Positions 11,692 to 42,569 of a DNA stretch of 64,000 bases are shown here, piece after piece. The translations under genes and the position numbers were made by a program. Within the stretch, counting starts at the first letter, position 1. Each line of letters opens with the position of its first letter. Where the stretch lies: IMG/VR virus record IMGVR_UViG_3300037104_000796, positions 62,001-126,000 of that record; one strand, given 5' to 3'. Below the pieces are notes generated by a model. That model was not told the origin of the DNA. It did no database searches and saw nothing but the letters and a program-made list of their open reading frames with translations. This DNA is from a virus.

Positions 11692-12270
11692 TTAATAATT
11701 TTTTTTATATTTGCCCCTGGGCTTTCCTTTATGGGCTTTTCTTTGTTTATTCTTTGTTTCGTCTGATACTATATGATTCATTAAAGAATTACTTTGGTTT
11801 TTCTTTGTTTCTTCTGAATGTATTTTCCCTATATGAGATATACTCATTAAATGTTTTGTTTCTTCAGTTCTTGTTTTTCCAGTATTCTTTTTTACTCTTT
11901 TTTCTATTATTTCTTTGCTTTGTGTTAAACCTTTATTCCATGCAGGTATTCCTGCCATGTGAAAACTTAAATTTGTGTTAGGCAAATAACGATTATAGCC
12001 ATTAGGAGCCAATGTGTTAAATTTTAAAATATACTCTGATTCACTATTAAGCATATCTTTTGCATTTTCATAATCACTTTGCAAAATTTCCTTTTTAAAA
12101 TTTTCTTTTCCGTATTTTTCGTAATCTTTATTGAGATATTTACTTGATCCCCAATAAATGTCATCTTTTATTTTATCTCTGTAACATACTCTACTACCTA
12201 TATACTGCTTGTTTGTTATTATGTTTGTTATGATATATACGTAATAAAAACATACAGTTCTAGCCCTCAT
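11692..12270 (-). CDS. GIY-YIG homing endonuclease
   Basis: 192 residues. The catalytic module has YYVYIITNIITNKQYIGS, YWGSSKYL and SEYILKFNTLAPNGYN, then NUMOD3-like repeats (RTEETKHLMSISHIGK, HSEETKKNQSNSL, SDETKNKQRKAHKGK). The first four residues, MRAR, and the upstream AT-rich motif resemble tagged-gene starts, so the gene may have landed next to or within one. It lies between the 738-residue protein and the gp15-like gene. Confidence 0.87.
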   Translation of the reverse strand: MRARTVCFYYVYIITNIITNKQYIGSRVCYRDKIKDDIYWGSSKYLNKDYEKYGKENFKKEILQSDYENAKDMLNSESEYILKFNTLAPNGYNRYLPNTNLSFHMAGIPAWNKGLTQSKEIIEKRVKKNTGKTRTEETKHLMSISHIGKIHSEETKKNQSNSLMNHIVSDETKNKQRKAHKGKPRGKYKKNY

Positions 12271-12324: not shown

Positions 12325-13680
12325 TTATACTATCTTAACTTGACGGGTAACCCCAAATGCTTCTGTTGAACTTGTTTGTACTAATGGGTCATTATAATTT
12401 GCCACAGAATTGACTACATATATATCTATCGTTTTGTAATCTACTATTCCCGGAAATACAATCGAGCCAAAAGGAACAGCTATATTTTGTATTTTATTAT
12501 CTTCTAAAGTAATGTTTATTGAAGCATCTCCTGAATACACTACTTGATTGGCTGTATTACGCATTTCCAATACGATATTAAATGAAGCATCAGCAGTAGG
12601 TGATAAGAAATAACCAGGATCAATAATTGTAAATGAAGATACATCTATTAAAGGCGGATTAGTAAGTGTTGGGAGTATACTTATTATCGGAGGACGATAA
12701 ATACTTACACTTACACTAGGATCATCCGGCCAAATAATGACAGGATTTTTATAAGTTGTAAATGTTTGTGGGATATTCCAAATATAATATTCATTATTAG
12801 GAACTCCTCTTTCAATAACATTTTTTGTATCTTCTCCGGTATTTGACCAAAGAATATCGACTTTATTAATAATTGTGTTTTCATCTTTATATTCCCATTC
12901 TAATAATAATGGATAACCCTTTGGAACTGTTTCTCCTTGATAATCTGTAACAAGCGTAATAATGCCATCATTTCGAGTTACATTATTATCAATCAATCTA
13001 TGACCAATTCCTACCATGTAGTCATTGTTATTTACTTCTGTGGTTGGATCGAATACAGGTTGATATGTTTCAACTTGTAAATCAAAGGTTATTTTGATTT
13101 TATTTTCAGGTTCAAACGAATAATTAATATTTTTTTCTAACGCAATATCTTCAGGAAAACCTACTGTTGAACCTACTCTCATCCCCTTGTAATAAACATA
13201 GAAGGTAATAGTTTTGTAGAAAAGTTCTCGTATCGCTTGTTCTATTTTTAATGCTGTGATTTGAGTATCTAACCAAAGTTCACAACTAAAATTAACATTT
13301 AACGGAATAGAATAAAGAAATGAACGCATTGTTTGAAGTTGTCCATTAACTTGTTTTAAGTAAGTTCCTTGTATATATCTTGAAGTTATTCTGGCTGAAT
13401 CAATCGGAGAACCCATATAAGTAACTACTCCTCTTGGAATAACATCAAAGTTTCCATCGACAGGTCTAGGTGGAAGACACCAGCCATAAAAAGTATAAAA
13501 ATCTTGCATAAATCTTTCATCACCAGACATATTATAAAACCAGGGAACTTTTACAGTTTCAATGTCTTCATTGCTCCATATTTGTTCATAAGTGATTTTA
13601 TTGTTAAGAATATTTAAAATTCCAGCAATTATCGCTCTTGACAAGATATTTTCATTATTGTATTTTTGATGTAGTGCCAT
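12325..13680 (-). CDS. 15: Tail sheath stabiliser/completion protein (T4 gp15-like)
   Basis: 451 residues; T4 gp15 is 272. The first 260 or so follow the gp15 layout: an N-terminal GILNILNNKITYEQ and VKVPWFY, then PLNVNFSCELWLDTQI, a helix ALKIEQAIRELFY, and KIKITFDLQVETYQPVFDP. In T4, gp15 caps the tail tube and sheath and joins the neck. The extra C-terminal 190 residues contain two beta-sandwich-like stretches (WPDDPSVSVSIYRPPI; SPTADASFNIVLEMRN), perhaps an Ig-like decoration. The call rests on pattern and gene context. Confidence 0.68.
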   Translation of the reverse strand: MALHQKYNNENILSRAIIAGILNILNNKITYEQIWSNEDIETVKVPWFYNMSGDERFMQDFYTFYGWCLPPRPVDGNFDVIPRGVVTYMGSPIDSARITSRYIQGTYLKQVNGQLQTMRSFLYSIPLNVNFSCELWLDTQITALKIEQAIRELFYKTITFYVYYKGMRVGSTVGFPEDIALEKNINYSFEPENKIKITFDLQVETYQPVFDPTTEVNNNDYMVGIGHRLIDNNVTRNDGIITLVTDYQGETVPKGYPLLLEWEYKDENTIINKVDILWSNTGEDTKNVIERGVPNNEYYIWNIPQTFTTYKNPVIIWPDDPSVSVSIYRPPIISILPTLTNPPLIDVSSFTIIDPGYFLSPTADASFNIVLEMRNTANQVVYSGDASINITLEDNKIQNIAVPFGSIVFPGIVDYKTIDIYVVNSVANYNDPLVQTSSTEAFGVTRQVKIV

Positions 13681-13698: not shown

Positions 13699-16440
13699 TT
13701 AAATTTTATTAGTATTCTTGAGTTCTTTTTTTAAAAAATCAGTCCATTCTCTTCTTGTTTGTTCATCTAAATCAGGATCACTTTCTATTTCCCAAATCCA
13801 GCCTTCCGGTCCGGACAACCATGACGCATCGCCTTCTTTAACTTTTTTATCAGCATAATTTTGAATAATTTTAAGTAAGCCAATGCGCATATCTCTTATA
13901 GGATCAGATTCTTCTGCAAAGGTTTCATTCATACGTAACTTAAAAATCCATCTATTTTGAATAGCCTTTTGTTTGTCAACATTATAAAATGCAGCTAATA
14001 TATGAATAAGTGCTTGTTCTGATCCTGTAAAAATTAATCCGGCAATACCTGATTTATATTCATCTTTCATTTTATATGTTACGCCTGATTTTTTAAAGAA
14101 GTCTCCAACTTCGTTGCCTTCTATACTTTCAATATCATTTTTGTCGGGTTTGAATTTGGTCATTCCATATAATGGAATTGTTCGATATCCTGAGCCAATA
14201 CCCATATCTTTAATAGCATCTGTATCTTCTTTGAATTTTTCATTTATCATATTGCCTTTATCGTCACACATCCATGATTGTAATTCAGGGTGAAGTTTTT
14301 TCAATGCCACGTGTACTTGTTCATAATTTACTACTTGAGGTTTGCTATTAACAGTTAAATACTTTTGAACATATTTTGCTAATCGATTCAGTTTTGATTC
14401 TAAATTTACTTTAAAATAGAGATAATAACTGCTATTAGTGTCATTTAAAATATTTTCTGGAAGATTTTTTATTTTAAGAATAGCTGATAACATTTCTGCG
14501 ATAAACATATCCATTGCTTTTTGAGATTTAAAATCATGAGGACCATATAAACCAATTCCCATACTATGAACTGGGTCTCCTTCTTCTGAAAACTTTTCAT
14601 TAACATGTGCATCAGCCATCACAATTGTTAATCGATTTAATTTTCTGGTCATTGCATCAACAGCAACACCTTTATCATTTTTAAAGCCTTTTACGTTAAT
14701 CATATGTTCTATTTCATCAAAAAATTTATTCTTTGAGTATTCTTTACATATAATCGTATATACTGTATTCCCTAATGCATTTTTATCATATTCTACTGTT
14801 GTTTCATCACCAAACAAAACATAACGAATGTAATCAATGTAATCAACTCCACCGTGTACGTATTTAACTGGAAATAAATTCATTATCTCTTCTTTGAAGT
14901 GATTAGCTCCAATATTCATATCAGCTATAGCATCACCTTCTTCTGAGAATTTTTCATTTACAGATTCTTTTAGGTTTTTTATTTTCCAGTTAGGAACGAT
15001 CTCAAGATATTTTTCGATAAACTCTTTATCTAATGACCATTGATGATAAACTAACTTATTTAAATGTTTTAATGATTTTCTTAAATCCATAAGATCATCG
15101 CAACTATAATAAAAAACACTGGTAATGTCTCCATCAAGATTTCTGAATATTTTATTAAGAATAACATATGAATTTTTAGGATGACTTTGGTTGATAGTTT
15201 TTTTAACTCGTACAATACTTCCTCGTTTTGCATCATCCCAATCGATATCGCCTATACCCATATCGTGAATTGGATCAGAATCAATTACAAATTTTTCATT
15301 TACATTTTTCTTTTCAAAATAAGGATTGACATCTAAGAAAAATTTAATTTCCAACATCTCTGCAACCTTTGTAAGAATTTTAAGTCTTATTTTAGGATCG
15401 TCATAGTCCTTCATTTTCATCTCAAGAGCAGTTATTTCTTCAAAAGATTTTTGAGGAGTTATACGTGGATGTTCAATTAAATTTTTAACAGTATGATACA
15501 TTACTCTTACAAGAGGTACTGCGTATCCTTCGTATTCTTTTGAACATGTTTTTTTGTAATATAATCGATATAAGTCCATGCAACTTCCCGGCGGAATCGA
15601 ATACAAAATCTTTTTTAAACGCTCAATACCACCAATATGCATATCTCTTATGGGATCGCCAACTTCTTCTGAAAATTTTTCGTTAAGGTCAGGATATTTC
15701 CACGATTTTAATTCAGGATGTTTTAATTTGAAAACATATGAAAAATCTAGCCAATCAAATATGTCTTTTCCGTCAACTCTAACGAAATCCTTTATATATT
15801 TTCTTAATGTATTAGCACAACGTCGTTGTTCGGCATAATCTTCTGCAAAAAATATGAAAATATTTTCTTCTGGATCATTTAAAATATTTTCAGGAATTTC
15901 ATCTATATCAAGTATTGCTGTTAAATTTTCAACAATAAATTCATACATTTTATTCGGCGTATCAAAATCTTTATGCGCATACAATCCTATTTTCATATCC
16001 TTTATAGGATCCGATTCTTCTTTGAATTTCTCATTGACTGATTCATTTACATTTATATCAATGCCAAAATGTTTTTTAAGAGCATTAGCAATATCTTTCT
16101 GTATTTCATATTTAGATGGATAAAGCCCCTCTACCAAATCAACAATGCCATTAGCCTTTTTTTTACAAGCTCTTTCAAATGCAATTTGAGGAGAATTTCC
16201 TTTAATTAAATATTTTAAAATATCACATAAACAATACATTTTTTGCCAAACACATTTGTCGCGTCTATTGATAGGTTTTTTTCTATCATCAAAATAGTCA
16301 TAATATACGCGAGATGGAGCTGCATCATTTATCTTTTTTGCATGTTCTTTCCATATTTTACGAGCGCCAATTCCCATATCCTTAATAGGATCAGATTGAT
16401 CTGTGAATTTTTCGTAAAGATTTTCTTTGATGGGTTCCAA
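13699..16440 (-). CDS. Polyprotein of eight tagged modules
   Basis: 913 residues with a TTG start; the alignment of its first residues (x-K-E-N-LYE-KF) to other tags supports that start, and an in-frame stop lies just upstream. Eight tag copies end near residues 25, 152, 270, 396, 512, 630, 748 and 853. Each is (L/I/V/M)xE-(K/T)F...(S/G/T)D(P/A)(I/V)xxMxIG. The spacing is about 105-128 residues, so each tag heads one small domain. Modules 2 and 6 are near relatives (HDF...MxxFI...PENILND...KxLHPELxSW). Module 4 carries the GSIVRVK domain seen at 105-779. If a T4-type prohead protease cuts after each (L/I/V)xE, the product would be eight separate small proteins. Intact length and processing are inference. 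No module has a recognised function. Confidence 0.9.
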   Translation of the reverse strand: MEPIKENLYEKFTDQSDPIKDMGIGARKIWKEHAKKINDAAPSRVYYDYFDDRKKPINRRDKCVWQKMYCLCDILKYLIKGNSPQIAFERACKKKANGIVDLVEGLYPSKYEIQKDIANALKKHFGIDINVNESVNEKFKEESDPIKDMKIGLYAHKDFDTPNKMYEFIVENLTAILDIDEIPENILNDPEENIFIFFAEDYAEQRRCANTLRKYIKDFVRVDGKDIFDWLDFSYVFKLKHPELKSWKYPDLNEKFSEEVGDPIRDMHIGGIERLKKILYSIPPGSCMDLYRLYYKKTCSKEYEGYAVPLVRVMYHTVKNLIEHPRITPQKSFEEITALEMKMKDYDDPKIRLKILTKVAEMLEIKFFLDVNPYFEKKNVNEKFVIDSDPIHDMGIGDIDWDDAKRGSIVRVKKTINQSHPKNSYVILNKIFRNLDGDITSVFYYSCDDLMDLRKSLKHLNKLVYHQWSLDKEFIEKYLEIVPNWKIKNLKESVNEKFSEEGDAIADMNIGANHFKEEIMNLFPVKYVHGGVDYIDYIRYVLFGDETTVEYDKNALGNTVYTIICKEYSKNKFFDEIEHMINVKGFKNDKGVAVDAMTRKLNRLTIVMADAHVNEKFSEEGDPVHSMGIGLYGPHDFKSQKAMDMFIAEMLSAILKIKNLPENILNDTNSSYYLYFKVNLESKLNRLAKYVQKYLTVNSKPQVVNYEQVHVALKKLHPELQSWMCDDKGNMINEKFKEDTDAIKDMGIGSGYRTIPLYGMTKFKPDKNDIESIEGNEVGDFFKKSGVTYKMKDEYKSGIAGLIFTGSEQALIHILAAFYNVDKQKAIQNRWIFKLRMNETFAEESDPIRDMRIGLLKIIQNYADKKVKEGDASWLSGPEGWIWEIESDPDLDEQTRREWTDFLKKELKNTNKI

Positions 16441-16463: not shown

Positions 16464-18185
16464 TCACTCAACGATTACGATTCGTTTCATAAATTCTGGA
16501 GGAAATGCTTTTCGATTATTGTGTATTAAATCAGCCATTGCCCCATCTAAAATGTAAGTGACTGCCCAGTCATCTTCGCTTCTTACACTTCTACCAGTTC
16601 CTTGCAAAATATTGATGATCGCTTTCCAGCGATACCATTCGGGATTTATTTTTAATTTCGTTGCTACAAATTTATCGCCTAAAGACAGATATGGAACTTT
16701 AGCAAATATTGCAAACCTACTCCAATCATCTTTTAAGTCTAAACCTTCCAATAATGACGGACCCATAAGTACTTTATTTTTATTTACTTTTAGCATTTCA
16801 AGCACTTGTCGTTTTTCTTCTGTCCCATTATAAACTAAAATTCTTCTTTTATTTTTATGTGAAAGTCCATTATGAATTTTTAATGCAAGATCATATGATG
16901 CTGTATGAATGATTCCACTTTCGCCTACATGATTTTCAAGTATCTTATCAATAGTTTCATAAAGCCATGGAAGATTACCCTCTATTTGATTATAAGTCAT
17001 TCTTCTTTTGTTGTAAAAATAAATTGGAGACTTTGTAAAATCAAAATGCGAATCCATTTTAATGTACTTAGCAGTTTTTAAAGAAATACTTCTAAGATAA
17101 TTTGAAGGGTCTGCAAATGTAGCCGACATTAACACTGTGAATCCTGTCCATTGATGAAAATATTTATGCATCATATATGATTCTTCCAAACAATTAAATG
17201 TCAATTCATCTTTGCCTGTAGGATTTTTTACAATATTTCGAGTTGAAGTTTTTTCAATAATGTCATTATAGTCATCAACTTTGCAATGTAAATCTTTAAC
17301 CCAATCACATAAACGTAAAGCTTCCTTCCATTCTTTTGGAGGATCATCATGCGGATAATCAGTTTTAACTTTTTCTTTGAATTTCTCCCAAGTAACTCTA
17401 TAATTGTGCTGGAGATTGTTTTTGATCTCTATTAGGATTTCATGTAAGTTATCTTGATTATCTGTCTTATATAAACTACCAATATCTTCTTTAATATCGC
17501 TTAAGTCTTTATAATGATCATGCAATTTATAAAGTTTAAAAAAATCTGTAAGTTTTTGCAACTTTTCAATTGTCTTGGGATCAAATCGAGGTGAATAATG
17601 ATTTTGAACTATATCGAGAATTTTGTGGCCTTCATCACATATCGTAAAATCACGAGGTGGAAATGGAGTATCATCCATGCTTTGATTAACATAATTCATC
17701 ATTATCAACCAATATGCATAATTCAATAAAGCAGTTTCAGATCCTGAAGCTTTATCTCTTGCTGAAAAATAAGGACAATGATGATAACATGGCATTCGTT
17801 TTGCGGGTTTATTTCTTATACGACAAGTTCCTAAAGAATTCTTTTCCATATTGTCTAAGCAAATATAGTTGTCAATTCCCTTAATGGAACCCCATCTAAA
17901 ATTTCCTTTTGCAAAATCTTTTTCGTATTGTTCTTGGAGTGATAAATCTGATGCGAGAATAAATCCTTTCAATTCTTGTTGATTAAGAATCCATGCAACA
18001 GCCATGCCTATAATAGATTTTCCTGAACCTACCGGAGCATCTAATATAACTGTTTTAGTTTTATTATAATATGCCTTAATAATTTCGATTATTGCTTCTT
18101 TTTGTCCTTTACGCCAAACGAACTCATCGCCAAAAAATGTAGTGCGGAATTCTTCTATTTGTAACTCTAACTGTTCTATAGTCAT
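16464..18185 (-). CDS. XPD/DinG-like superfamily 2 DNA helicase
   Basis: 573 residues. Walker A is APVGSGKS (50-57) and the DEAH box is DEGH (184-187). Four cysteines between them (109, 121, 133, 137) are placed like the iron-sulphur cluster of XPD and DinG helicases. The C-terminal helicase lobe ends with the motif VI-like QGTGRSVRSEDDWA. Such enzymes unwind DNA 5' to 3' and help resolve R-loops or damaged forks. It directly follows the polyprotein gene downstream and may share its transcript. It is shorter than bacterial DinG. Confidence 0.87.
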   Translation of the reverse strand: MTIEQLELQIEEFRTTFFGDEFVWRKGQKEAIIEIIKAYYNKTKTVILDAPVGSGKSIIGMAVAWILNQQELKGFILASDLSLQEQYEKDFAKGNFRWGSIKGIDNYICLDNMEKNSLGTCRIRNKPAKRMPCYHHCPYFSARDKASGSETALLNYAYWLIMMNYVNQSMDDTPFPPRDFTICDEGHKILDIVQNHYSPRFDPKTIEKLQKLTDFFKLYKLHDHYKDLSDIKEDIGSLYKTDNQDNLHEILIEIKNNLQHNYRVTWEKFKEKVKTDYPHDDPPKEWKEALRLCDWVKDLHCKVDDYNDIIEKTSTRNIVKNPTGKDELTFNCLEESYMMHKYFHQWTGFTVLMSATFADPSNYLRSISLKTAKYIKMDSHFDFTKSPIYFYNKRRMTYNQIEGNLPWLYETIDKILENHVGESGIIHTASYDLALKIHNGLSHKNKRRILVYNGTEEKRQVLEMLKVNKNKVLMGPSLLEGLDLKDDWSRFAIFAKVPYLSLGDKFVATKLKINPEWYRWKAIINILQGTGRSVRSEDDWAVTYILDGAMADLIHNNRKAFPPEFMKRIVIVE

Positions 18186-18213: not shown

Positions 18214-18245
18214 GATAAAAAAAGGCTTAAGTTTTACTTAAGCCT
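18214..18245 (-). terminator. Rho-independent terminator
   Basis: Minus strand: AGGCTTAAGT-AAA-ACTTAAGCCT followed by a run of T. It includes the stop codon of the tagged gene at 18234 and separates it from the helicase gene. Confidence 0.85.
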
Positions 18246-18485
18246 GTATTTTTTATGATGTGTTACTTTTTTATTTAGCCAATCTCGTAATTTAACATTT
18301 AATTTGTACAAATCCTCTTCATTGTGGATACGTGGATAAACAGTTTGTGTAATATGCGCTACTACGTTATCAAAATAATGATCAACAACTACACCCGATC
18401 TACTTGGACGACCAATACCCATATCTTTAATGGGATCAGATTCTTCTCTAAAATCTTCGTCAATATGTTCTTTTACAATATTCAT
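18234..18485 (-). CDS. Small tagged protein
   Basis: 83 residues. N-terminal tag: H-I-D-E-DF...SDPIKDMGIG, preceded by MNIVKE. The remaining 55 residues look helical with many His and Lys (LRDWLNKKVTHHKKY). Its start overlaps the stop of the upstream 157-residue gene by four bases, so translation is probably coupled. If cut at I-D-E, the product is about 73 residues. Confidence 0.85.
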   Translation of the reverse strand: MNIVKEHIDEDFREESDPIKDMGIGRPSRSGVVVDHYFDNVVAHITQTVYPRIHNEEDLYKLNVKLRDWLNKKVTHHKKYRLK

Positions 18486-20318: not shown

Positions 20319-20933
20319 TTAAGTGTATTTTACTTGTTTTCTTTCTCGAGAATTTTGATTATGTATTGCACCAAATTTATCTGACCAATACCCTTGTTCA
20401 GCACAATGTTTACAAACCCCGTTTTCAAATTCACCAGGGTGGGTAGGTCTTCCACAAGCTTCACATTCAAGTTCTTCGTGTGAAATATCTGGAGATGGTT
20501 TATCACTGTCTTCATATTGAAGTCTTGTATCATTGTATAAACCTGTTACAGGTTGATTTCTGGCATTATTTGTAAAAGGCAAGACATGAACGCCTTCACT
20601 AATTTTTGAAATGATATAAGATTCCGGAACTCTGAGACCATTAATCTGATAATCAATTCTTCCCATAAATCCTCTTTGACGTTTGGAAATTCTTCCTATT
20701 TGATCTTTTCCTCTTTCAACTTTTGATGTTGCAGACATTTCAGATGCTTTATGCCAAGTTTGATATTTAACTTTATCACCTTTTTTGTATTTAGGTTTAG
20801 GATGACTTTTGTCATCATCAGCAGCATCTCCAATATAATTTGGATTCTCTAACGGATACTTTTGAGAAATAGGTTTGTTACCATCATTTCTAAAAGGCAT
20901 TTGCATATTTTCATGTACTAATTTAGCTCGCAT
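20319..20933 (-). CDS. Zinc-finger protein with degenerate tag start
   Basis: 204 residues. It begins MRAKLVHENM, like the tagged proteins (V-H-E), but lacks the SDPI...MGIG part. The middle is basic and KOW/SH3-like (YKKGDKVKYQTW...GRIDYQINGLRVPESYII). Near the C-terminus a four-cysteine zinc ribbon is visible (CEACGRPTHPG...CKHC). It overlaps the next tagged gene upstream by 11 bases. It may be another capsid-targeted protein with a shortened tag. Function unknown. Confidence 0.7.
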   Translation of the reverse strand: MRAKLVHENMQMPFRNDGNKPISQKYPLENPNYIGDAADDDKSHPKPKYKKGDKVKYQTWHKASEMSATSKVERGKDQIGRISKRQRGFMGRIDYQINGLRVPESYIISKISEGVHVLPFTNNARNQPVTGLYNDTRLQYEDSDKPSPDISHEELECEACGRPTHPGEFENGVCKHCAEQGYWSDKFGAIHNQNSRERKQVKYT

Positions 20934-21282
20934 CTTTTATAGTTAATTTTTCATCTCCAAGAATATTGTAATAATTTCCGTCTTCATTTACTACACTTAC
21001 TGAACTTTCAAATCCATTTCTTTCTTTTGTATTTACTATTTTTTTAACTTTGATAGTCATATTATCCCAACTACCTCTTCGTCCTTTCCATGGACTTAAT
21101 CTTCCAGTAATTGTTTTTCCAACTAAAGAATCATTTAAAAGTTTTATCCATTCGTTTGCTGCTCTATCTTGGATTTCTGCATGCACATCATTAAGTTTTA
21201 CACCACCAATTCCCATATCTCTTATAGGATCAGAATCTTCTGTAAACTTTGATAATTGTTCATTAATGGTTTTAGCTCGCAT
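20923..21282 (-). CDS. Tagged protein, GKxIxG-domain family
   Basis: 119 residues. Tag: T-I-N-E, then QLSKF...SDPIRDMGIG, one of three copies with a short insert between the (I)xE and the Phe. The domain after it contains LLNDSLVGKTITGRL and a beta-rich remainder. The same layout occurs at 37886, 38898 and 39646, so these form a paralogous family. An AT-rich TTTTATATA motif precedes the start on the opposite reading. Function unknown. Confidence 0.85.
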   Translation of the reverse strand: MRAKTINEQLSKFTEDSDPIRDMGIGGVKLNDVHAEIQDRAANEWIKLLNDSLVGKTITGRLSPWKGRRGSWDNMTIKVKKIVNTKERNGFESSVSVVNEDGNYYNILGDEKLTIKDAS

Positions 21283-28445: not shown

Positions 28446-29345
28446 ATGAAATGCCAAGAATGTAATAAAGAAGTAAAAAATTTAAAAGCTTTATCCACCC
28501 ATATTCAATTTAAACACGGAAATAATAAAAAGGAATATTATGACAAATGGTTAAAAACGAGTAAAGAAGGATTTTGCAAAATGTGTGGAAAACCAACCGA
28601 ATTTTATATTCTAAATTATGGATATAAAGTATATTGTTCTAATAAATGTATGAGCGACGATTATGTTAAAGAAAAAACTCTGCATAATCCGATGCATACT
28701 AATTCTGCTAAATTAAATCAACGAAATACAAATTTAAAACGATATAATGTAACACAAAATACAAAACGACCTGAAATTAAGCAGCAAATAATTGATACAA
28801 ATAAAAAATTATATGGTGTTAACAATGTTTCTCAAGATCCAACTATAAAAGCAAAAGCTTTAAAATCAAGAGAGGATACGAATATGAAAAATCATGGTGT
28901 TAAAAGTAGTTTTTCTGTTCCGTACGTTCGAACTAAAATTAAAAGAGCACTTATGTTAAATCATGGAGTTGAAAATCCTATGCAAAATCAAGAAATATTT
29001 AACAAATCGCAAAAAACTCGTTTTCTTTTACATAAATTTAAAAATAAAGATTTATATTATCAAGGTTCATATGAATTACATTTTTTAGAAACATTTTTTG
29101 ATAAATTTCCAGATATTACTAGAGGCCCTTCTATTAAATATGTGTTTAATAATAAAATTAAAATACATCATCCAGATTTTTATATTCCAAGTTTAAATTT
29201 GATTATTGAAATTAAAAATTCATATTTATATAAAAAATATTATGATTCTATTAAAGCTAAAGAAAAAGGCGCTCTAAAAGTCGGATATAAATACATAATT
29301 ATTGTAGAAAAAAATTATGATAAATTTTTAGATTCAATTAATTGA
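28446..29345 (+). CDS. Zinc-finger homing endonuclease with PD-(D/E)XK-like domain
   Basis: 299 residues on the plus strand. N-terminal C2H2-like finger (CQECNKEVKNLKALSTH...H) and a CxxC...CxxxC knuckle. Then several repeats with the core (N)HGV(E/K)NPxQ seen in NUMOD-type DNA readers. C-terminal nuclease: HHPDFYIPSLNLIIEIKNSY with a preceding Glu. It is paralogous to the minus-strand protein at 48608. It sits between gp41 and small genes and overlaps the converging gene at 29315 by 31 bases. Confidence 0.85.
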   Translation: MKCQECNKEVKNLKALSTHIQFKHGNNKKEYYDKWLKTSKEGFCKMCGKPTEFYILNYGYKVYCSNKCMSDDYVKEKTLHNPMHTNSAKLNQRNTNLKRYNVTQNTKRPEIKQQIIDTNKKLYGVNNVSQDPTIKAKALKSREDTNMKNHGVKSSFSVPYVRTKIKRALMLNHGVENPMQNQEIFNKSQKTRFLLHKFKNKDLYYQGSYELHFLETFFDKFPDITRGPSIKYVFNNKIKIHHPDFYIPSLNLIIEIKNSYLYKKYYDSIKAKEKGALKVGYKYIIIVEKNYDKFLDSIN

Positions 29346-32234: not shown

Positions 32235-32924
32235 TTATTTTACGAATTGACGAAATGGAAATTTAACATAATATGTGCCATAGTTTTTGTATAAACTTAC
32301 ACCATTATTTCTTGCAGTTGTTGCTATTCTTGACATTGTACTACCCAAATATCTTTTATTATAGCCGGTAACATTCTCGGGTCCTCCTGAAGTATAGCCA
32401 CTATAACTTGCTCCTTCAACATGAGGAATATCAACGAATAAACCTTCATTACTCTCATAAGGATATGGCGACATAGTACTTATACGTACATCCATTCCAA
32501 AAACTCTTTTCATATGTTTAACAAACTTTTCTGCGAAAGGCATTACAATTGCTCTTTTTCTATCGAGTTCGGCTTCGTATTTTGCTTTATCATCAGCAAC
32601 TTTTTCTTTTTTAACGCTGCCGGCTTCTTCATGTCCTAACGATACTGCTTTTTCAAGAAATATCTGAGCAACTCTTGAATCTTTACCTGCAATTTGTGCA
32701 GCAGCTAAATAACGACGATAGGCTTTTTCTTTATCTTTGATTAACTTACACATCGTTTCAGCTAGATCAGTAGCAGAAACATGTCTTTTCTGTTGAGCTT
32801 TTGTAAAAATATCATTAACTCTTTGGATATCTTTAGCATCAGGTTTTTGTCCAATACCTAAATCATGAATAGGATCTGAATCTTCTACAAATTTTTCATA
32901 CAATTGTTCTCTTACTAATTTCAC
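32235..32924 (-). CDS. Tagged protein with Sel1-like helical domain
   Basis: 229 residues. Tag: LYE-KF...SDPIHDLGIG after MKLVREQ. The domain after it, KLIKDKEKAYRRYLAAAQIAG...VAQIFLEKAVSLGH, looks like a pair of Sel1/TPR-type helices and is shared with the next gene upstream. The C-terminal part (AEKFVKHMKRVFGMDVRIS...) is separate and Tyr/Gly-rich, with GASYSGYTSGGPENV. Probably a capsid-targeted effector; activity unknown. Confidence 0.82.
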   Translation of the reverse strand: MKLVREQLYEKFVEDSDPIHDLGIGQKPDAKDIQRVNDIFTKAQQKRHVSATDLAETMCKLIKDKEKAYRRYLAAAQIAGKDSRVAQIFLEKAVSLGHEEAGSVKKEKVADDKAKYEAELDRKRAIVMPFAEKFVKHMKRVFGMDVRISTMSPYPYESNEGLFVDIPHVEGASYSGYTSGGPENVTGYNKRYLGSTMSRIATTARNNGVSLYKNYGTYYVKFPFRQFVK

Positions 32925-32933
32925 AATCTTGAA

Positions 32934-33278
32934 TTATTTTATACCAGCAAGTTCGCCAGCTCTTTTAAGAAATACTCTTGTTACGTCCCAATGCTCGCCT
33001 CCAATCTTGGCAGCTGCAACATAACGTCTATATGCTTTTTTAGGGTCTTGAATTAATTTGCCCATGGTGGTTGCTAGTGAAATTTCTTTTTTAGAATTTC
33101 CTCCGGCTTTTGAAACAATAGCTTCGACACGCATTCTATCTTTTGGTTCAGGACTGACCCATCGATATTTTTTTTGTAATTCGTCTCTGTATTTTGGTAA
33201 TAGGCCGATGCCTAAATCCATGATAGGATCACTTTCTTCTGAAAACTTTTCGTATAACGATTCTTTTACAAGTTTCAC
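32934..33278 (-). CDS. Tagged protein, short paralogue of the neighbour
   Basis: 114 residues. Tag: LYE-KF...SDPIMDLGIG after MKLVKES. The remainder (SLATTMGKLIQDPKKAYRRYVAAAKIGG...VFLKRAGELAG) matches the helical domain of the protein at 32235. Tandem duplication is the simplest explanation. It lacks the neighbour's C-terminal domain. Confidence 0.85.
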   Translation of the reverse strand: MKLVKESLYEKFSEESDPIMDLGIGLLPKYRDELQKKYRWVSPEPKDRMRVEAIVSKAGGNSKKEISLATTMGKLIQDPKKAYRRYVAAAKIGGEHWDVTRVFLKRAGELAGIK

Positions 33279-35545: not shown

Positions 35546-36718
35546 TTAAAATAAAGATTTTGCGTAAATTAAATTTCCTGGAACTGGATTGAATCCTATT
35601 GATGTTAAAATTCGATTGAAAGGTTCCACAATAGTTTTTTCAAACTGTAAGTCATAATCAACAGTTGGAGCAAATTCGTATGGGAAGTTTCCTGGAAGAA
35701 AGCCAAATACTTCATTTCCATCTTTTGTATAATAGTACTTAACCTTATCTCCCGTTTTAATCAAATTGTATTTTGTTTTCCATTTTGGACTATTAAGAAT
35801 AATGTGATTGTAAACAGCCGATGCCCTTACGTTTTGACCACATTTTTCTGCAAGTCTTATTTGTTTTTTATCTTCCAAACAATACTTTTCATAATCACCC
35901 AATGATTGTGTTTTTGCGACATCATCAGGATTTTGAAGAACATATTGCTTTTTATATTCTTTTAACTTCTTAACTACTTCTGCATATTGAATATTCTTTC
36001 CCTTTTCACAAGCCATTTTTATCATTTCTTTCAAAACTTTTCTTGCAAATTTTGGGGTTGAACCTTGAACAATTTCAACACCTACAAATTTAATTTTTGC
36101 TTGAGGTTCAATATAAACACCCGGTTCTTTCCAAGCTAAATCAAGAATATATTTCTTTTTAGCAACCATGATTGCAGAATATGATATTTTTTCCAATTCC
36201 AAATTCTGTATATTTTTGGTGTTATATTTTAATGCATATTCTTCGAATTTTTTATCAAGATAAGCATTCAATCTTAATTCTTTAATTTTCAAAATAAAAT
36301 CAACTTTGCTTTCTTTATAATCACACGATTTTAATACGGGATCAAATGTAACATAACATGAATCTGTGTCCATATAAATTGTTAAAGTTTTTTCAGTTAT
36401 TTTGTTTGCGTGTGTTATTCCAAGTGCTTCATGAAGTTTCTTATCTTTATGCCAAAATTCAAAGAAATATTCATCAATAGCTCTACTTGCGTATTTTGCC
36501 ACATCTTGGCCTTGTAACGTAACTGCTTCAGCTACATTGACATTATAACATTCAAAATATGCAGAACCTGTAGCCCCATAAACTGAGTTTATAAACACCT
36601 TAAGAGACTGCTCGAGACCATGATATTCTTCTTTTAAATTATTTAATTTTTGAATCTCTTCTTCCAATTCTTCTATACTACAATTATAAGGATCTATAGT
36701 TGTTAATTTAAATTCCAT
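35546..36718 (-). CDS. 43: C-terminal part of a split family B DNA polymerase (T4 gp43)
   Basis: 390 residues from the ATG at 36718; T4 gp43 is 898. Motif B is KVFINSVYG (40-48) and motif C is YMDTDS (115-120). Palm, thumb and the C-terminus (GFNPVPGNLIYAKSLF) follow. The exonuclease domain and motif A (DxxSLYPS) are missing and are nowhere else in the window. The frame is open with its own start and an AT-rich motif, so it looks expressed, not decayed. A homing endonuclease gene is inserted right upstream in the opposite direction. Some Aeromonas T4-like phages have gene 43 split by a mobile endonuclease gene. The N-terminal half should lie elsewhere in the genome. Confidence 0.9.
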   Translation of the reverse strand: MEFKLTTIDPYNCSIEELEEEIQKLNNLKEEYHGLEQSLKVFINSVYGATGSAYFECYNVNVAEAVTLQGQDVAKYASRAIDEYFFEFWHKDKKLHEALGITHANKITEKTLTIYMDTDSCYVTFDPVLKSCDYKESKVDFILKIKELRLNAYLDKKFEEYALKYNTKNIQNLELEKISYSAIMVAKKKYILDLAWKEPGVYIEPQAKIKFVGVEIVQGSTPKFARKVLKEMIKMACEKGKNIQYAEVVKKLKEYKKQYVLQNPDDVAKTQSLGDYEKYCLEDKKQIRLAEKCGQNVRASAVYNHIILNSPKWKTKYNLIKTGDKVKYYYTKDGNEVFGFLPGNFPYEFAPTVDYDLQFEKTIVEPFNRILTSIGFNPVPGNLIYAKSLF

Positions 36719-36720
36719 AA

Positions 36721-36738
36721 TATATTTTATTTTTATAT
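36721..36738 (-). promoter_or_regulatory. AT-rich late-type motif before the polymerase piece
   Basis: Minus strand TATATAAAAATAAAATATA, ending two bases before the ATG. It would let the split C-terminal piece be made on its own. Confidence 0.4.
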
Positions 36739-36810
36739 ACACAAAAATTAATCAAGTTTTAAATTTTGTTAATTATTTTAAATTAATGAAAAACTTTGTT
36801 CGTTGTTAGA

Positions 36811-36827: not shown

Positions 36828-37889
36828 ATGAACAAACAAAATGTAATAAGCGCTATCACTAAACATTTAAAAATTAATAATAAAATAATGGGCTTTAAAT
36901 CTAAGAAAAATATTATTTTTATAAATTGGATAAATGATTATTTTAAAAATTCAGAAATAGCAACATCTAGTTTTTTAGAAAAAGTGTGGGTAATAACACA
37001 CAACGATAATATAGAACATTGCGCTACTTGTGGAATTAAATCTGTTTTCGGAAATTTTAATGTTGGTTATCGAAGTAAACATTGTAAAAAATGTGCATCT
37101 CCTGAGGGATATAGAAGATTAGCACAAAAAAGAAAAGAAGAATCTCCGGAAATAATAGTTACAAAAAATTGTAAAGAGTGTGATATAATTTTTTCATATA
37201 AAACGCACAAATTAAATAACACAATAAATAAAGAATTTTGCTCTAAATCTTGTGCGGGCATTTACAATCAGAATAATATGTCCGTAGAAACTATAAAAAA
37301 TAAAAATGAGAAAACAAATAAAACCAATGTAGAAAAATATAAAGACCCGTGGGTAGTTAATTCAAAATATACACGAAATATAACAAAAGAAAAATTAGGT
37401 GTAGAATATCCATTTCAAGATCCAAAAATTATAAAAAAATGCAAAGATACATTATATGAAAATACCGGATATACAAATCCTCTCAAAAATCCTAAAACTC
37501 TTAAAAAGATGCTAAATACAAAAATAGAACGTTATGGAGATTTATTAATTCCTATGGCCAAATATAAAGATTTTAAAATGCCTTCAGGGAAAGTTGTTAA
37601 AGTTCAAGGAAATGAAAGCTACGGATTGAATATTCTTCTTGAAAAATATAATGAAACTGATATATTTGTTGGAAGAAAAAATATAGAAAACGAAATAGGA
37701 CAAATACATTATATTGGAAAAGATCACAGACAACACATATACTATCCTGATATTTACATTAAATCACAAAATAAAATATTTGAAGTTAAATCTAATTTCA
37801 CATATAAAATTCATAAAGAAACTAATGAATTGAAAAAACAAGCCGTTTTAGAAAAAAATATAGAATTTGAATTTATGATAATCAATTAA
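36828..37889 (+). CDS. Zinc-finger homing endonuclease inserted beside the polymerase gene
   Basis: 353 residues on the plus strand. Two CxxC...CxxC knuckles (CATCGIKS...CKKC; CKECDIIF...CSKSC), then two NUMOD-type repeats (GVEYPFQDPKI; GYTNPLKNPKT) and a C-terminal nuclease-like domain IYYPDIYIKSQNKIFEVKS. It belongs with the PD-(D/E)XK-like homing endonucleases at 28446 and 48608. Its insertion coincides with the missing front half of gene 43. Its 3' end overlaps the converging tagged gene by four bases. Confidence 0.82.
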   Translation: MNKQNVISAITKHLKINNKIMGFKSKKNIIFINWINDYFKNSEIATSSFLEKVWVITHNDNIEHCATCGIKSVFGNFNVGYRSKHCKKCASPEGYRRLAQKRKEESPEIIVTKNCKECDIIFSYKTHKLNNTINKEFCSKSCAGIYNQNNMSVETIKNKNEKTNKTNVEKYKDPWVVNSKYTRNITKEKLGVEYPFQDPKIIKKCKDTLYENTGYTNPLKNPKTLKKMLNTKIERYGDLLIPMAKYKDFKMPSGKVVKVQGNESYGLNILLEKYNETDIFVGRKNIENEIGQIHYIGKDHRQHIYYPDIYIKSQNKIFEVKSNFTYKIHKETNELKKQAVLEKNIEFEFMIIN

Positions 37890-38245
37890 TTTATGTGATA
37901 CTTTTCGCCCCACAATAATAAATATGTAAAGCCTTTATCATCTTCAAAAATTAATTTTTCACGAATATCATCATTAGAAGTATATCGAGTAATTATAAAT
38001 ATGTAATCTCTACCGTCGGCATCAAATGCGCCATATTCTGAACGACGTCTTTTAAACTTTCCAGATATTGTTTTGTAAATTAGCGAACTTAAAAATTCAC
38101 GTACTTTATTATCATACTGATTTTCAATTTTCAAATCTTGAATATACTTCAAAATATCTATTTTTCCAATACCCATATCAGTGATAGGATCACTATCTTC
38201 TGTGAAGCCCATTCTTTCATCAATATGTTCTCTAACTAATTTCAT
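37886..38245 (-). CDS. Tagged protein, GKxIxG-domain family
   Basis: 119 residues. Tag: H-I-D-E then RMGF...SDPITDMGIG after MKLVRE. The domain has FLSSLIYKTISGKFKRRRS, then beta strands and YLLLWGEKYHIN. It belongs to the same family as 20923, 38898 and 39646. Its start codon overlaps the stop of the gene upstream by one base. Confidence 0.85.
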   Translation of the reverse strand: MKLVREHIDERMGFTEDSDPITDMGIGKIDILKYIQDLKIENQYDNKVREFLSSLIYKTISGKFKRRRSEYGAFDADGRDYIFIITRYTSNDDIREKLIFEDDKGFTYLLLWGEKYHIN

Positions 38246-38901
38246 TAAAAACCTCTTTCTTCAACTATAAATCTATAATCGAATTTCTTTTTAGATACTA
38301 TCATGCGTCCATTGGTGCCTCCATAGAGTGTCGTATTTCCATGAGTTTTAAAATAGTCACGGGATATATCCATTTGTTCTTTGTTGTTATATTTTTTAAA
38401 ACGTAAATCTTTATAATTTGTGCCATATCGTATAACATTGTATATGACAATATATGACTCTGGATAAAGTTTTAATCCTGAGTGCCACGATGTAAATTGG
38501 CCTGATTGATTTTTAGTTACTGCAAAACCCATTCTTTTGGCTTTAAGTACTGCACCGGGTTTGAGAGTTTCATATGAGAACCCGCCAATACCCATATCAG
38601 AAATGGGATCAGAATCTGCATCAGTAAAAGCTTCATCTAATCCAGGCCAACCACCATTTGGAGGTACATCATCTAAAGCATCTTCAGGTAATTCGTTAAA
38701 AATTTTCATCCAATCAAACGCAGGATATTTTTTATGGAATCTACGAATTATTTGTTCATATTCATATTGAATATCATCTTCAGTTTTTGCAGCTCTTTTT
38801 AATTGTTTAATAAATTTAGACATAAGTCCTATTCCTAAATCTTGAATAGGATCAGATTCAGCTTTAAATTTCTCGTATAATTGTTCTCTAACTAATTTCA
38901 T
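38245..38901 (-). CDS. Tagged protein with two tag copies
   Basis: 218 residues. First tag LYE-KF...SDPIQDLGIG after MKLVREQ; second, near residues 85-108, L-D-E-AF...SDPISDMGIG. Module 1 is helical (FIKQLKRAAKTEDDIQYEYEQII). Module 2 starts YETLKPGAVLKAKRMGF and belongs to the GSILRAK family seen at 105-779 and in polyprotein module 4. It overlaps both neighbours, so it is translationally coupled. Confidence 0.87.
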   Translation of the reverse strand: MKLVREQLYEKFKAESDPIQDLGIGLMSKFIKQLKRAAKTEDDIQYEYEQIIRRFHKKYPAFDWMKIFNELPEDALDDVPPNGGWPGLDEAFTDADSDPISDMGIGGFSYETLKPGAVLKAKRMGFAVTKNQSGQFTSWHSGLKLYPESYIVIYNVIRYGTNYKDLRFKKYNNKEQMDISRDYFKTHGNTTLYGGTNGRMIVSKKKFDYRFIVEERGF

Positions 38902-39266
38902 TCTTCAATGAATATTTTTTTATCATCGTAAGGAATAGTGTAAGAAGCTTTTTCTTCAGTATCAAAAACACTTAATCCGTGTGAATCTTCATCAAATTCA
39001 TTTATTTTACCAACATATATTGTGTATTTTCCCCAACCTTTTCCAGTTTTAATTGAATCGTTTTTAACCACAAGCATCTGATTAAATTCGCCTGTTATAT
39101 GTTTATTTAAGAGTGCATCTTTAAAAGTTTTAATGAAATTTTCACGATATTCTTTTTTTAATCGCGAACGTGTTCTTCCCGCATTAAAACCGCCGATTCC
39201 CATATCGTGAACGGGATCGCCTTCTTCACTAAATTTTTCGTATAAATATTCTCTTACTTTTTTCAT
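38898..39266 (-). CDS. Tagged protein, GKxIxG-domain family
   Basis: 122 residues. Tag: LYE-KF...GDPVHDMGIG after MKKVREY. The domain has FKDALLNKHITGEFNQML, then YTIYVGKINEF and beta strands to the end. ATGA-type overlap with the upstream gene. Confidence 0.85.
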   Translation of the reverse strand: MKKVREYLYEKFSEEGDPVHDMGIGGFNAGRTRSRLKKEYRENFIKTFKDALLNKHITGEFNQMLVVKNDSIKTGKGWGKYTIYVGKINEFDEDSHGLSVFDTEEKASYTIPYDDKKIFIEE

Positions 39267-39646
39267 TAGTCATCTATTTGATTATCTAATCCCGCTTTTC
39301 CACTTTTCATAGCTTCTTCAGGTGTATTCCATTTATATGGCCCATCTCCCATATAAGGTTCTCCAGTATCTGGAATTGCAATATAAAATGTTTTAACTAT
39401 CGTTCCCTGTTTATCTCTTAATACTCCTAAAGCATTTACTTGTACAATTTTAAGATGAAGACTTCGATATTCAATTATGTCAATTATTTTTTCTTTAACC
39501 GGAAATTCATAAGCGCGCACACTCCAATCCCATTCATATTGTTTGTCCAATTTAGCCATTTGAGCATCATGTCCAATCTCCATATCTTTTATAGGATCTG
39601 AATCTTCGGTAAAGCCTAATGCTTCATATATAAATTGTGCTCTCAT
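39266..39646 (-). CDS. Tagged protein of unknown function
   Basis: 126 residues. Tag: F-I-Y-E then ALGF...SDPIKDMEIG after MRAQ. The rest has IDIIEYRSLHLKIVQVNALG and a C-terminal GEPYMGDGPYKWNTPEEAM, which looks like a small beta-sheet domain with a helix. It is one-base overlapped with its neighbours in the run from 37886 to 42569. Confidence 0.82.
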   Translation of the reverse strand: MRAQFIYEALGFTEDSDPIKDMEIGHDAQMAKLDKQYEWDWSVRAYEFPVKEKIIDIIEYRSLHLKIVQVNALGVLRDKQGTIVKTFYIAIPDTGEPYMGDGPYKWNTPEEAMKSGKAGLDNQIDD

Positions 39647-40041
39647 TACTTTATAAGATAATTTTCTTCAGGCAATACCCTGTAAATGTTAAATACTGCA
39701 TCTCGTGAAGATGTTGCCTCGGCCTTTTTATCAAAAAAATATAATTCGGCTCCATTTAAATAGCTGTTATAATCATTTATAGTAAAAGTTATTCTATTAG
39801 TTTTTTTAAATGGCTTTTCTCTTACTGCTTTAACTTGTTCAAATATTCCAGAAATGATTTTTCCTTTTAATGAATTTAAAAAAACTTGCCATTTATCACG
39901 TTTCTTTCCAAAATCTTTAATTTTATCATTTTGTATAGTTTTAAGAGCTTCTGTTTTAAAATTTACATTGCTTCCAATACTCATATCATGAACAGGGTCA
40001 CTTACTTCATCAAACTTTTCAAATACAAATTGTGCTTTCAT
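39646..40041 (-). CDS. Tagged protein, GKxIxG-domain family
   Basis: 131 residues. Tag: V-F-E-KF...SDPVHDMSIG after MKAQF. The domain: WQVFLNSLKGKIISGIFEQ, then RITFTINDYNSYL and LYFFDKKAEATS. Four-base overlap with the large gene upstream. Same family as 20923, 37886 and 38898. Confidence 0.85.
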   Translation of the reverse strand: MKAQFVFEKFDEVSDPVHDMSIGSNVNFKTEALKTIQNDKIKDFGKKRDKWQVFLNSLKGKIISGIFEQVKAVREKPFKKTNRITFTINDYNSYLNGAELYFFDKKAEATSSRDAVFNIYRVLPEENYLIK

Positions 40042-42569
40042 TTCGGTATTTTGTATATTTTATTTTTATACATTACTCTTAATCCACGCATTTTATTCTC
40101 ATCCAAAATATCTGCATCTCCCTTAGGAACAAAAATCATAGAAGCATTTGCATATCTATTGAATTTCACTAGAACAGTTTTTACTTGTCCTTCAGTTAAA
40201 GAATGCGTTAGACTTCCTGATTGATTTTCTTGTTCTATACTTTGCAATGCTATGTCATATCCTATTCCCATATCATGTATCGGGTCTGATTTTTCAGTAA
40301 ACTTTTCATTAAGTTGTGGATAAAAATTATCCGGTTGCAACTCTTCTGCTAAGTTTTCTATTTCAGTTATCCTTTGAACTTCAATATTTACTTGAATGCT
40401 TTTATCTGTTCTTCTCGTTCCTTGATTAACACGAATTTGAATAACAACACTATAAAGAATTTCTGCAGTAACAATATAATATTTTATTTCAAGTCCGGCG
40501 TTGTTATTTCCATCTTTTATGAAAATCTTTCCATCATAATCTTCATACGCTTTATTGTATAAACTTACACCACCGTTTTGTGGAAATTTATGAATCTTAA
40601 CTTTATTAGGATCGCCATCTTTATTCCCTTGAAATTTAAAGAATGCTGGATTTTGTCCTAAGCTCAAACTATACGCGGCCAAACTGATAAACATGTTATC
40701 TTCAGCAACTTTTTCTAAAAGATAATTTAACATCTTTAAAGATCCGTATTTTGCTTTTGCCGCTGTAGAATCACTAAATCCTTCAACTGTTCCTTCAAGT
40801 CGATAATTAAATGAATCGGCTTCTTTTAATTTTGATATATTTGTAGGAATTTTATTTCTTTGATTAATGATTTCGGTCATGAATCGTTCGGGAGTCCACG
40901 TTTGTTCTTCTTTTGTTAAATTATAACGATCAGACACTGTCTCGTGTTTTGAAATATAACTCTTTCCTTTTCCACCTTGAGCAGTTTGTTCTTTTAATGA
41001 AATGGCTAATGCCAAAATATTTTGGTTTTCAGTTTCTAAATCATCTGCAAAAATATTATTGTAATCGCCGAGTTTAAGTTGTTCAGTTTCTTTTTGTGCG
41101 GCTTCGGTCCAACGATCAAGAATTTCTTGTTTTTTGCCCGGTTTAACAAGCATCATATCCATTGGATTCCATTTGTCTACTGCATTAGCAGCAAATCCGA
41201 TTCCTTTAGCAGCTTCTTTTTTAATATCAGTAAAGAATTTATCACGATATATTTCCCAATCTGAAAAATTTGTTTCTTTTAATTTCTTTCCAATTGACAT
41301 TGCATTAAAAATACTGTTTACGAAAAGTAAATTGTATTTGTCGCCTTCTTGTGTTAAAGTTCTAAGAATATAATCAGTATCCTTTTCATCCATGCCTTTA
41401 ATGCGATTATCAGTTATATCTTTAACAATTTTTTCAATCGTATTAAAATAATTGGCTTTCTTCTCTTCTTCTTTGCCGATTTTCTTAAATGGTTCATATT
41501 CTTCTTCTGTTTGGAAGAAATAAACAACCAAACCTTCTTTAAAAACTGTAGGAGTTTGCGTCATTTGACCACCTGAAGAAACACCGGAATATTTTACTCC
41601 GTATTTATTTCCATCTAATGTGTAAAGCAAACCTGGGAATTTTCCTGATACAGCTCCTGGCTGTCCGGGATAGACGAGTCTCATTGAACTTTTATCAAGG
41701 TCTAAATTAAATTCATCTGATACCTCAGTAAAGTCTTTTACGAATTGATCATCGGAAGTTTTTGCAATATTTTCAATACGTTTTCCTGTGCTATATTTGT
41801 ATTTTGCAGGATATTTTTTTGCCACTTCTCTTAATAAAAATGTATTTCCGGTTCCTTTGGTATATAATTTGGAATCAACTTCATTTAATGATGGGTAAAA
41901 TGGTTCATGAACGCTTTCATCACCAAGAGTTGCCATCTGCCATTGACGTTTTGATTTATATTTAGGACTTTTTGAACCAAAACCATACGGCACTTCTTTT
42001 TTGCCTGCGCCTGGAGGAATTAAGTGTTTGATTTGTAATTCTTCTGGATGTCTTTCATATTTTTTATTATATTCATCAGGAGTAACAAATTTTTGAGTTT
42101 TTGCATCCGGGTGCCAATCTCCCCAAACTGGAAATATTGCATAATAATCATCATTAACTGGTCTTGTGGGATATTTTTTAAGTTTTTTGAAATTTTTAGA
42201 AGGAACTTCTATTTTCCATTCACCATCGAAAAAGTCAACTTTTACTTCATCTTCTTGAAGTTTAATATTTAAATCTTGTAATACTTTTTTAAGCTTTTCT
42301 TTATTCTCGGGGAAATGCCAAAACGTTACGATTTTAAAATCAAAGAAAAGTCTTCCCGCATATTGACCACGACCATCACCATAATATTCTTCTGGATAAT
42401 CATCAAGATATTTCATATCATCGTGTGTTGTTTGACGCTCACCGATAAGTAATTTTTCATTGTAATAAGAAAAAGGCATCGTGTTCGTATCATCCCAGTC
42501 TATTGCACGATTCTTCTTTGGATCATATATTGAGTTTGGATTTTCGAATAATCGTGGGTATAATGACAT
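40038..42569 (-). CDS. Large protein with a C-terminal tagged module
   Basis: 843 residues. The first 730 or so have no tag. They include YYNEKLLIGERQTTHDD and SGKFPGLLYTLDGNKYGVKYSG, whose function I cannot name. The segment EPFYPSLNEVDSK near residue 215 resembles a tag front without SDPI. Near residue 760, FYPQLNE-KF...SDPIHDMGIG is a full tag, followed by about 75 residues ending IYKIPK. Cutting after L-N-E would release this last module. Position at the head of the tagged run and a late-type motif suggest a virion protein. The internal-tag arrangement is unlike the other genes except the polyprotein. Confidence 0.8.
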   Translation of the reverse strand: MSLYPRLFENPNSIYDPKKNRAIDWDDTNTMPFSYYNEKLLIGERQTTHDDMKYLDDYPEEYYGDGRGQYAGRLFFDFKIVTFWHFPENKEKLKKVLQDLNIKLQEDEVKVDFFDGEWKIEVPSKNFKKLKKYPTRPVNDDYYAIFPVWGDWHPDAKTQKFVTPDEYNKKYERHPEELQIKHLIPPGAGKKEVPYGFGSKSPKYKSKRQWQMATLGDESVHEPFYPSLNEVDSKLYTKGTGNTFLLREVAKKYPAKYKYSTGKRIENIAKTSDDQFVKDFTEVSDEFNLDLDKSSMRLVYPGQPGAVSGKFPGLLYTLDGNKYGVKYSGVSSGGQMTQTPTVFKEGLVVYFFQTEEEYEPFKKIGKEEEKKANYFNTIEKIVKDITDNRIKGMDEKDTDYILRTLTQEGDKYNLLFVNSIFNAMSIGKKLKETNFSDWEIYRDKFFTDIKKEAAKGIGFAANAVDKWNPMDMMLVKPGKKQEILDRWTEAAQKETEQLKLGDYNNIFADDLETENQNILALAISLKEQTAQGGKGKSYISKHETVSDRYNLTKEEQTWTPERFMTEIINQRNKIPTNISKLKEADSFNYRLEGTVEGFSDSTAAKAKYGSLKMLNYLLEKVAEDNMFISLAAYSLSLGQNPAFFKFQGNKDGDPNKVKIHKFPQNGGVSLYNKAYEDYDGKIFIKDGNNNAGLEIKYYIVTAEILYSVVIQIRVNQGTRRTDKSIQVNIEVQRITEIENLAEELQPDNFYPQLNEKFTEKSDPIHDMGIGYDIALQSIEQENQSGSLTHSLTEGQVKTVLVKFNRYANASMIFVPKGDADILDENKMRGLRVMYKNKIYKIPK

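Follow-up and report, generated by a model that had tools for sequence, protein, structure and literature searches.

Tailed phages pack and inject cargo that is made as one protein per gene, and in T4 the internal proteins IPI-IPIII are processed by gp21, a protease of family S77. Delivery of IPI to the host has been described (PMC3012670), and in IPIII targeting was seen to depend most on residues 4 and 7, and processing on residues 8 and 10 (PMC9026906). With D at residue 10, IPIII was still targeted but no longer processed (PMC9026906). In gp23, the capsid protein of the same phage, E65 is the known propeptide boundary (PMC5694885). For phiKZ, 201phi2-1 and SPN3US, the motifs given for the prohead proteases are S/A-x-E and A-x-E (PMC5694885, PMC10052503, PMC9026906). 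Finally, N4 packages its large virion RNA polymerase, which has many domains, without cutting it; the polyvalent proteins among which this enzyme is counted are probably delivered with the DNA, and the authors of that source compare them to viral polyproteins (PMC5512222).

The stretch analysed here, hereafter the window, comprises 64,000 nucleotides of a 162-kb record from an uncultured large T4-like phage. A single open frame of 913 residues (13699-16440, minus strand) carries eight copies of a tag with the pattern [LIVM]xE-[KT]FxEESDPIxDMxIG. The reading that we favour, and regard as probable, is that of a capsid-cargo polyprotein which a T4-type prohead protease would cut into eight internal proteins, each retaining a 15-residue tag.

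Anatomy of the eight-tag gene

The predicted cut points lie after residues 10, 137, 254, 382, 496, 615, 734 and 839, which bears out the first-pass annotation of this DNA, where eight tags spaced 105-128 residues apart had been described in one 913-residue frame. Cutting there would give a 10-residue leader and pieces of 127, 117, 128, 114, 119, 119, 105 and 74 residues. The TTG start codon proposed at the same time fits as well, as it yields exactly a 10-residue leader (MEPIKENLYE|KF, predicted cut after E10; 16411-16440, minus strand as all parts of this gene) in the same register as the other leaders; it resembles a capsid-targeting sequence (CTS) such as MKTYQEFIAE of T4 IPII/IPIII. Two details had to be amended: the cut sites were said to be (L/I/V)xE throughout, while the last one reads MNE and is followed by T instead of K, and the fragments, announced as 11-14 kDa, have a computed range of 8.7-15.2 kDa. 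In three shuffled copies of the window, tag-like matches all stayed at or below 16 bits, compared to 28-41 bits for the genuine tags.

Most of the modules have relatives elsewhere. Tag 1 with module 1 (residues 11-137, 14.8 kDa; 16030-16410) has homologous polyprotein modules at loci L051 and L061. Module 2 (with its tag residues 138-254, 14.1 kDa; 15679-16029) belongs to the largest module family, which counts 48 members, and is a paralogue of module 6 (with its tag residues 616-734, 13.8 kDa; 14239-14595), the duplication noted earlier being confirmed by 35% identity over 96 aa (E 1e-16). The counterpart of module 3 (residues 255-382 with tag 3, 15.2 kDa; 15295-15678) is the second module of a two-tag gene (L074, L100), and that of module 5 (residues 497-615 with tag 5, 13.7 kDa; 14596-14952) is module 3 of a six-tag protein encoded at the same locus in L093. 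Module 4 (residues 383-496 with tag 4, 13.5 kDa; 14953-15294), a small beta-rich (SH3-like) domain, had been described as shared with another gene, and profile searches indeed relate it to two further genes of the window that carry two tags each, at 38245-38901 (E 1e-5) and 105-779 (E 1.8e-5) on the minus strand; in both, it is the second module that is related. For module 7 (residues 735-839 with tag 7, 12.0 kDa; 13924-14238) and module 8 (residues 840-913 with tag 8, 8.7 kDa; 13699-13923, stop codon included), relatives were searched and none was found. Members of the module families are also met alone and in different arrangements.

Searched as a whole, the 913-residue protein matched nothing in Pfam, in PHROGs or in the genomes of isolate phages, and its peptide patterns matched zero viral contigs, relatives being reached only via the tag pattern. 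Among 130 module representatives, Pfam recognised ankyrin repeats in five and otherwise gave single weak matches, and a PDB sequence search with two module families returned nothing significant. An AlphaFold2 model of tag 4, module 4 and tag 5 shows a folded beta-rich domain, with pLDDT below 50 in the N-terminal half of tag 4 and in all of tag 5; the tags are thus probably disordered segments beside a folded module, as modelled, which fits accessible linkers. The model of module 2 reaches a pLDDT of 77 and has no fold match in the PDB, and neither module 2 nor module 4 found a confident relative when searched by fold. The recurrence of the modules, together with one model, indicates that several independently folding units stand in one frame.

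Besides the eight-tag gene, the window holds many other tagged genes, the entire record containing 24 tags. On the minus strand, one-tag genes are found at 779-1237, 18234-18484 (leader MNIVKEHIDE), 20923-21282 (8-residue leader MRAKTINE, with 3 additional residues ahead of the tag), 32235-32924, 32934-33278, 37886-38245, 38898-39266, 39266-39646 and 39646-40041; the only tagged gene found on the plus strand, also with one tag, lies at 57820-58272. An 843-aa protein of a family that was not recognised (40038-42569, minus strand) carries a single tagged module at its C-terminus, and in its relatives in L033, L089 and L092 the tag is C-terminal too. Many homing endonuclease genes are scattered amid structural and replication genes, both in the window (11692-12270, 28446-29345, 48608-49504) and in L010 (9503-10210, 16157-17005).

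Distribution of the tag and gene order in relatives

Running a DNA pattern for DPIxDMGIG on a viral contig collection gave 97 stretches which, together with the phage's own record, contain 223 non-redundant tag-bearing ORFs. The 333 non-redundant tags that were classified divide into 214 N-terminal and 119 internal ones. Multi-tag ORFs are common (42 with 2 tags, 18 with 3 and 12 with 4 to 8, redundancy still included in these counts), and the tag load of relatives reaches 85 in G001 (405 kb) and 58 in G004 (83.6 kb). The densest tag region observed, L047, belongs to the latter contig, where seven multi-tag ORFs lie within the first 13.7 kb. In cellular genomes totalling 257 billion bases, the same DNA pattern was matched exactly 4 times, never together with the EKFxE part, and neither the tag nor a 26-residue leader-plus-tag query found anything in isolate phage genomes. 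Four exact tag strings were absent from the open-access papers searched. Judged from this distribution, the tag is the marker of a large phage-specific family.

The core genes of the window are about 55-80% identical to those of the tag-bearing contigs, so that the phages concerned form one group. Matches to UvsX, a gp43-like polymerase, SbcCD-like proteins, a type II topoisomerase, portal, terminase and sheath identify them as distant T4-like phages, the portal being related to T4 gp20. The 398-aa DNA polymerase of the window (35546-36742) aligns to the phrog_262 profile over its C-terminal part alone (positions 493-841), and the polymerase of this phage may be split into separate genes, as far as this partial match indicates.

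The array keeps its place between relatives. It follows a DNA helicase (phrog_2488; 16464-18185, minus strand) whose identity between the window and tag-bearing relatives is 68-83%, and, on contigs that extend far enough, it precedes genes for a 451-aa protein (12325-13680, minus strand; 61-67% identical in L018 and L093) and a 738-aa protein. What changes is its division into genes. A single ORF holds 8 tags in the window and 6 in G001 and G003, and the array ORFs of L041, L091, L051 and L061 hold at least 5 or 3, most of these contigs or loci ending within or just past the array. At L018 the locus consists of two 2-tag ORFs, and at L106 of seven separate ORFs, most of them with their own leader, while the order of the module families is shuffled between relatives. 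Over all loci, a stand-alone tagged relative exists for 92 of the 170 polyprotein modules. The coexistence of fused and separate forms at one locus means that separation is tolerated, as independent products would predict.

The neighbouring tagged genes of L106 overlap or abut, which would make fusion by loss of a stop codon easy, and the array might then have arisen simply because genes were duplicated and stop codons lost, the fusion itself having no function. This we find hardly credible, as multi-tag ORFs are common and in all of them the frame has stayed open and the cut site has been kept.

Leader, cut site and putative protease

Up to its glutamate, the leader measures 10 residues in 104 of 211 N-terminal tags and 8 residues in 67, the start codon being residue 1 in these two classes. 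The consensus of the 10-residue form, MKLVREHINE|KF, set beside the IPII/IPIII leader taken from the T4 record (MKTYQEFIAE|), agrees with this capsid-targeting sequence of T4 in its length, its register and the residues that matter for processing. Between N-terminal and internal tags, the information content falls from 1.88 to 0.74 bits at residue 4 and from 1.26 to 0.72 at residue 7, whereas it is maintained at residue 8 (2.83 and 2.45 bits) and at residue 10 (3.77 and 4.13). Residues 1-5 and 7 are mostly lost internally, while residue 8 is V, L, I or M in 96% of internal tags and residue 10 is E in 97%. Such decay, with residues 8 and 10 retained, is what would be expected if one leader imported the chain and each site were kept for cutting.

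Of the 333 tags, 332 have a [LIVMF]xE site, which small indels before the DPI part have shifted by 1-3 residues in 17 of them; the chance of finding [LIVM]xE within 3 residues on either side is 0.11. Conversely, 9 of the 91 proteins that have such a leader with its [LI]xE end lack the tag. The shifted sites and the tagless leader proteins show the cut site and the KFxEDSDPIxDMGIG part to be separate elements. CTS-like leaders ending in [LI]xE and without DPIxDMGIG occur at L011:12871-13182, near 5627 in L011, and near 10430 and 11270 in L013 (all on the minus strand); by their leaders, these proteins are candidates for further head-targeted proteins.

The chain might also be cut differently, either by another protease acting behind GIG, for which the papain-like enzyme of the genome would be an example, or by self-cleavage at Asp-Pro. 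A gene for a papain-like cysteine protease does exist (L011:14571-15320, minus strand; PF00112, E 8e-15), conservation stops sharply after GIG, and D-P is nearly invariant. Nevertheless, P is replaced by A in 6% of internal and 2% of N-terminal tags, and in two of the eight tags of the window gene, which speaks against a cut at D-P, and the leader-only proteins devoid of DPI still finish in [LI]xE; we therefore consider such processing very improbable.

A T4-type S77 protease (PF03420, 57.7 bits for a cut-off of 27) was detected in tag-bearing relatives, namely G001, G002 and G011, in the first two as a 787-residue protease-scaffold fusion (in G001 at L127 10662-13022), and a gp23-type capsid protein in G001, G002 and G005, all of them tag-bearing. 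The motif [LIVM]NE is observed 7 times versus 1.0 expected in the scaffold part, 4 versus 0.3 in the protease part and 10 versus 1.2 in the G011 homologue. The capsid protein of G001 and G002 (BLAST E 2e-8 to T4 gp23) carries LNE|AAMGG, in G001 as FHALNE|AAMGG at E43, where T4 gp23 has GSFLTE|AEIGG at E65. In a global alignment of the two proteins the LNE and LTE sites fall in different columns, and E43 is taken as the putative equivalent of E65 by motif. A tblastn match of the capsid protein in L014 was rejected, being the tail of a HAD-type phosphatase-like protein (L014:14839-15981, minus strand; record position 160439-161581). The C-terminal part of the latter, EDMGGVSAPMSTPMNTPGMGSAVPP...GSGDRW, resembles EAAMGGVSVPYATLYNVPGVGTAVP...GSGDKW in the G001 capsid protein, where this segment follows the presumed site of cutting (tblastn E 1e-4).

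In the phage's own 162-kb record, PF03420 and PF07068 were unmatched, so that genes for an S77 protease and for a gp23-type capsid protein both went undetected there; compared to the 405 kb of G001, this contig, classed as linear, is probably a fragment. The earlier suggestion that a protease makes eight separate proteins draws good support from comparison, namely from the split genes of relatives, the near-invariant site, a suitable protease and the motif in its presumed substrates. It is weakened by an own contig devoid of detectable protease and capsid genes, and by the module bodies, in which the motif is not depleted; cleavage itself is a prediction.

One may wonder whether the tag is instead a sorting signal for another destination, such as a phage-made compartment, the membrane, or the tail or ejection machinery, the proteins then not being head cargo. 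Up to 85 tags in one genome are indeed many for head cargo, and the DPIxDMGIG part has no known counterpart. However, the leader stands in the register of the T4 CTS, [LIV]xE is common to the scaffold and the capsid protein, and immediately upstream of the protease-scaffold and capsid genes of G001 stand two tagged genes, with two tags and one tag, all of which makes this explanation improbable.

The main rival is a packaged but uncut multi-domain virion protein, whose repeated docking tags would tether the modules to capsid, scaffold or DNA. To our knowledge, T4-type cut sites require no conserved sequence downstream, and the strong conservation of the post-cut part is therefore not accounted for by processing. 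Within a chain left uncut, the tag could serve for binding. In module bodies, [LIV]NE was observed 35 times for 35.9 expected, a negative depletion test, which implies that the motif alone would not spare the folded modules and that accessibility would have to, and which is also in keeping with a chain that is never cut. The N4 virion RNA polymerase offers a precedent (PMC5512222). Nevertheless, an uncut chain leaves three observations unexplained, namely the presence of [LIV]xE at 119 of 119 internal tags while other leader residues decay, the recurrence of the motif in the scaffold and capsid proteins, and the coexistence of fused and split forms at one locus. We consequently hold it to be unlikely, although less so than the other alternatives.

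The anatomy of the gene, the exchange of fused and separate forms, the agreement of the motifs and the presence of protease and capsid genes in relatives are all read from sequence; packaging, cleavage, a role for the tag and ejection are what we infer from them. In the favoured cargo-polyprotein model, the first 10 residues would act like the T4 capsid-targeting sequence and carry the whole chain into the prohead core, where a T4-type S77 prohead protease would cut behind the [LIV]xE of the leader and of every internal tag. A released leader and eight small proteins of 9-15 kDa would result, the mature proteins retaining KFxEDSDPIxDMGIG as their new N-terminus. It is improbable that the protease recognises its sites by this retained part, because the presumed scaffold and capsid sites have no such sequence behind them. 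Being separable from the cut site and absent at the protease's other presumed sites, the retained part is probably a docking or retention peptide in the capsid or the ejection path. As cargo, the modules would be interchangeable and quick to diverge, and their fate would probably be ejection into the host, as with the T4 internal proteins.

Comparison with known cargo systems

A more far-reaching version of the cargo-polyprotein model would see in these genes a dedicated system, in which one leader serves up to eight unrelated effectors that are cut inside the head by the prohead protease and share a docking tag, and in which tens of such modules, judged by the 85 tags of the 405-kb genome, make up an interchangeable injectable set; we give this version an even chance. 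If true, head assembly would have a new kind of economy, many cargo proteins being carried on one import signal. The tag also offers a handle, a short pattern by which sequence data alone can flag hundreds of otherwise unrecognisable small proteins. The tagged proteins probably accompany the phage DNA into the host cell and, for that reason, are good anti-defence candidates; the tag would thus make the injected proteins of large uncultured phages both searchable and testable.

A resemblance to encapsulin targeting peptides can be offered as a lead only. These short cargo tags (NTGGDLGIRK, consensus DGSLGIGSLKG) have a hydrophobic-Gly-hydrophobic core, LGI, and bind inside an HK97-fold shell (PMC7925596). 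The end of the phage tag, D[ML]GIG, resembles this core over four or five residues only, and the encapsulin peptides are usually C-terminal, unlike the phage tag.

The polyvalent proteins (DarA and DdrB of P1, N4 vRNAP) likewise unite many domains in one packaged chain. As far as the relevant passages of their description go, they consist of large, mixed enzymatic domains, their release is proposed to occur via embedded peptidase domains, and no repeated tag or cut site at every domain boundary is described (PMC5512222). No enzymatic or peptidase domain of this type was matched in the 913-residue protein with Pfam or PHROGs.

The phages phiKZ, 201phi2-1 and SPN3US also have many packaged and ejected proteins with N-terminal propeptides, cut after a glutamate motif, with several cuts per propeptide (PMC5694885, PMC10052503, PMC9026906). 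Unlike in the present phage, the removed fragments are propeptides, and each gene gives one mature protein rather than a row of folded ones.

The leader resembles that of T4 IPI-IPIII, which is likewise N-terminal and 10 residues long, with [LI]xE at its end and in the same register (MKTYQEFIAE versus MKLVREHINE). Also alike are the small and diverse cargo behind a conserved leader and, in relatives of the present phage, an S77 protease with a gp23-type capsid protein. Whereas T4 cargo is encoded as one protein per gene and has no common tag after the cut, the present phage has up to eight modules per leader and a conserved 15-residue tag after each cut site. Neither a tandem cargo polyprotein nor a shared retained tag was found in the open-access literature searched. 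Taken together, capsid-targeting leaders of the T4 type, S77 maturation and small, diverse internal proteins are known pieces, and what appears to be new is their putative combination with a tandem cargo polyprotein and a shared, retained tag.
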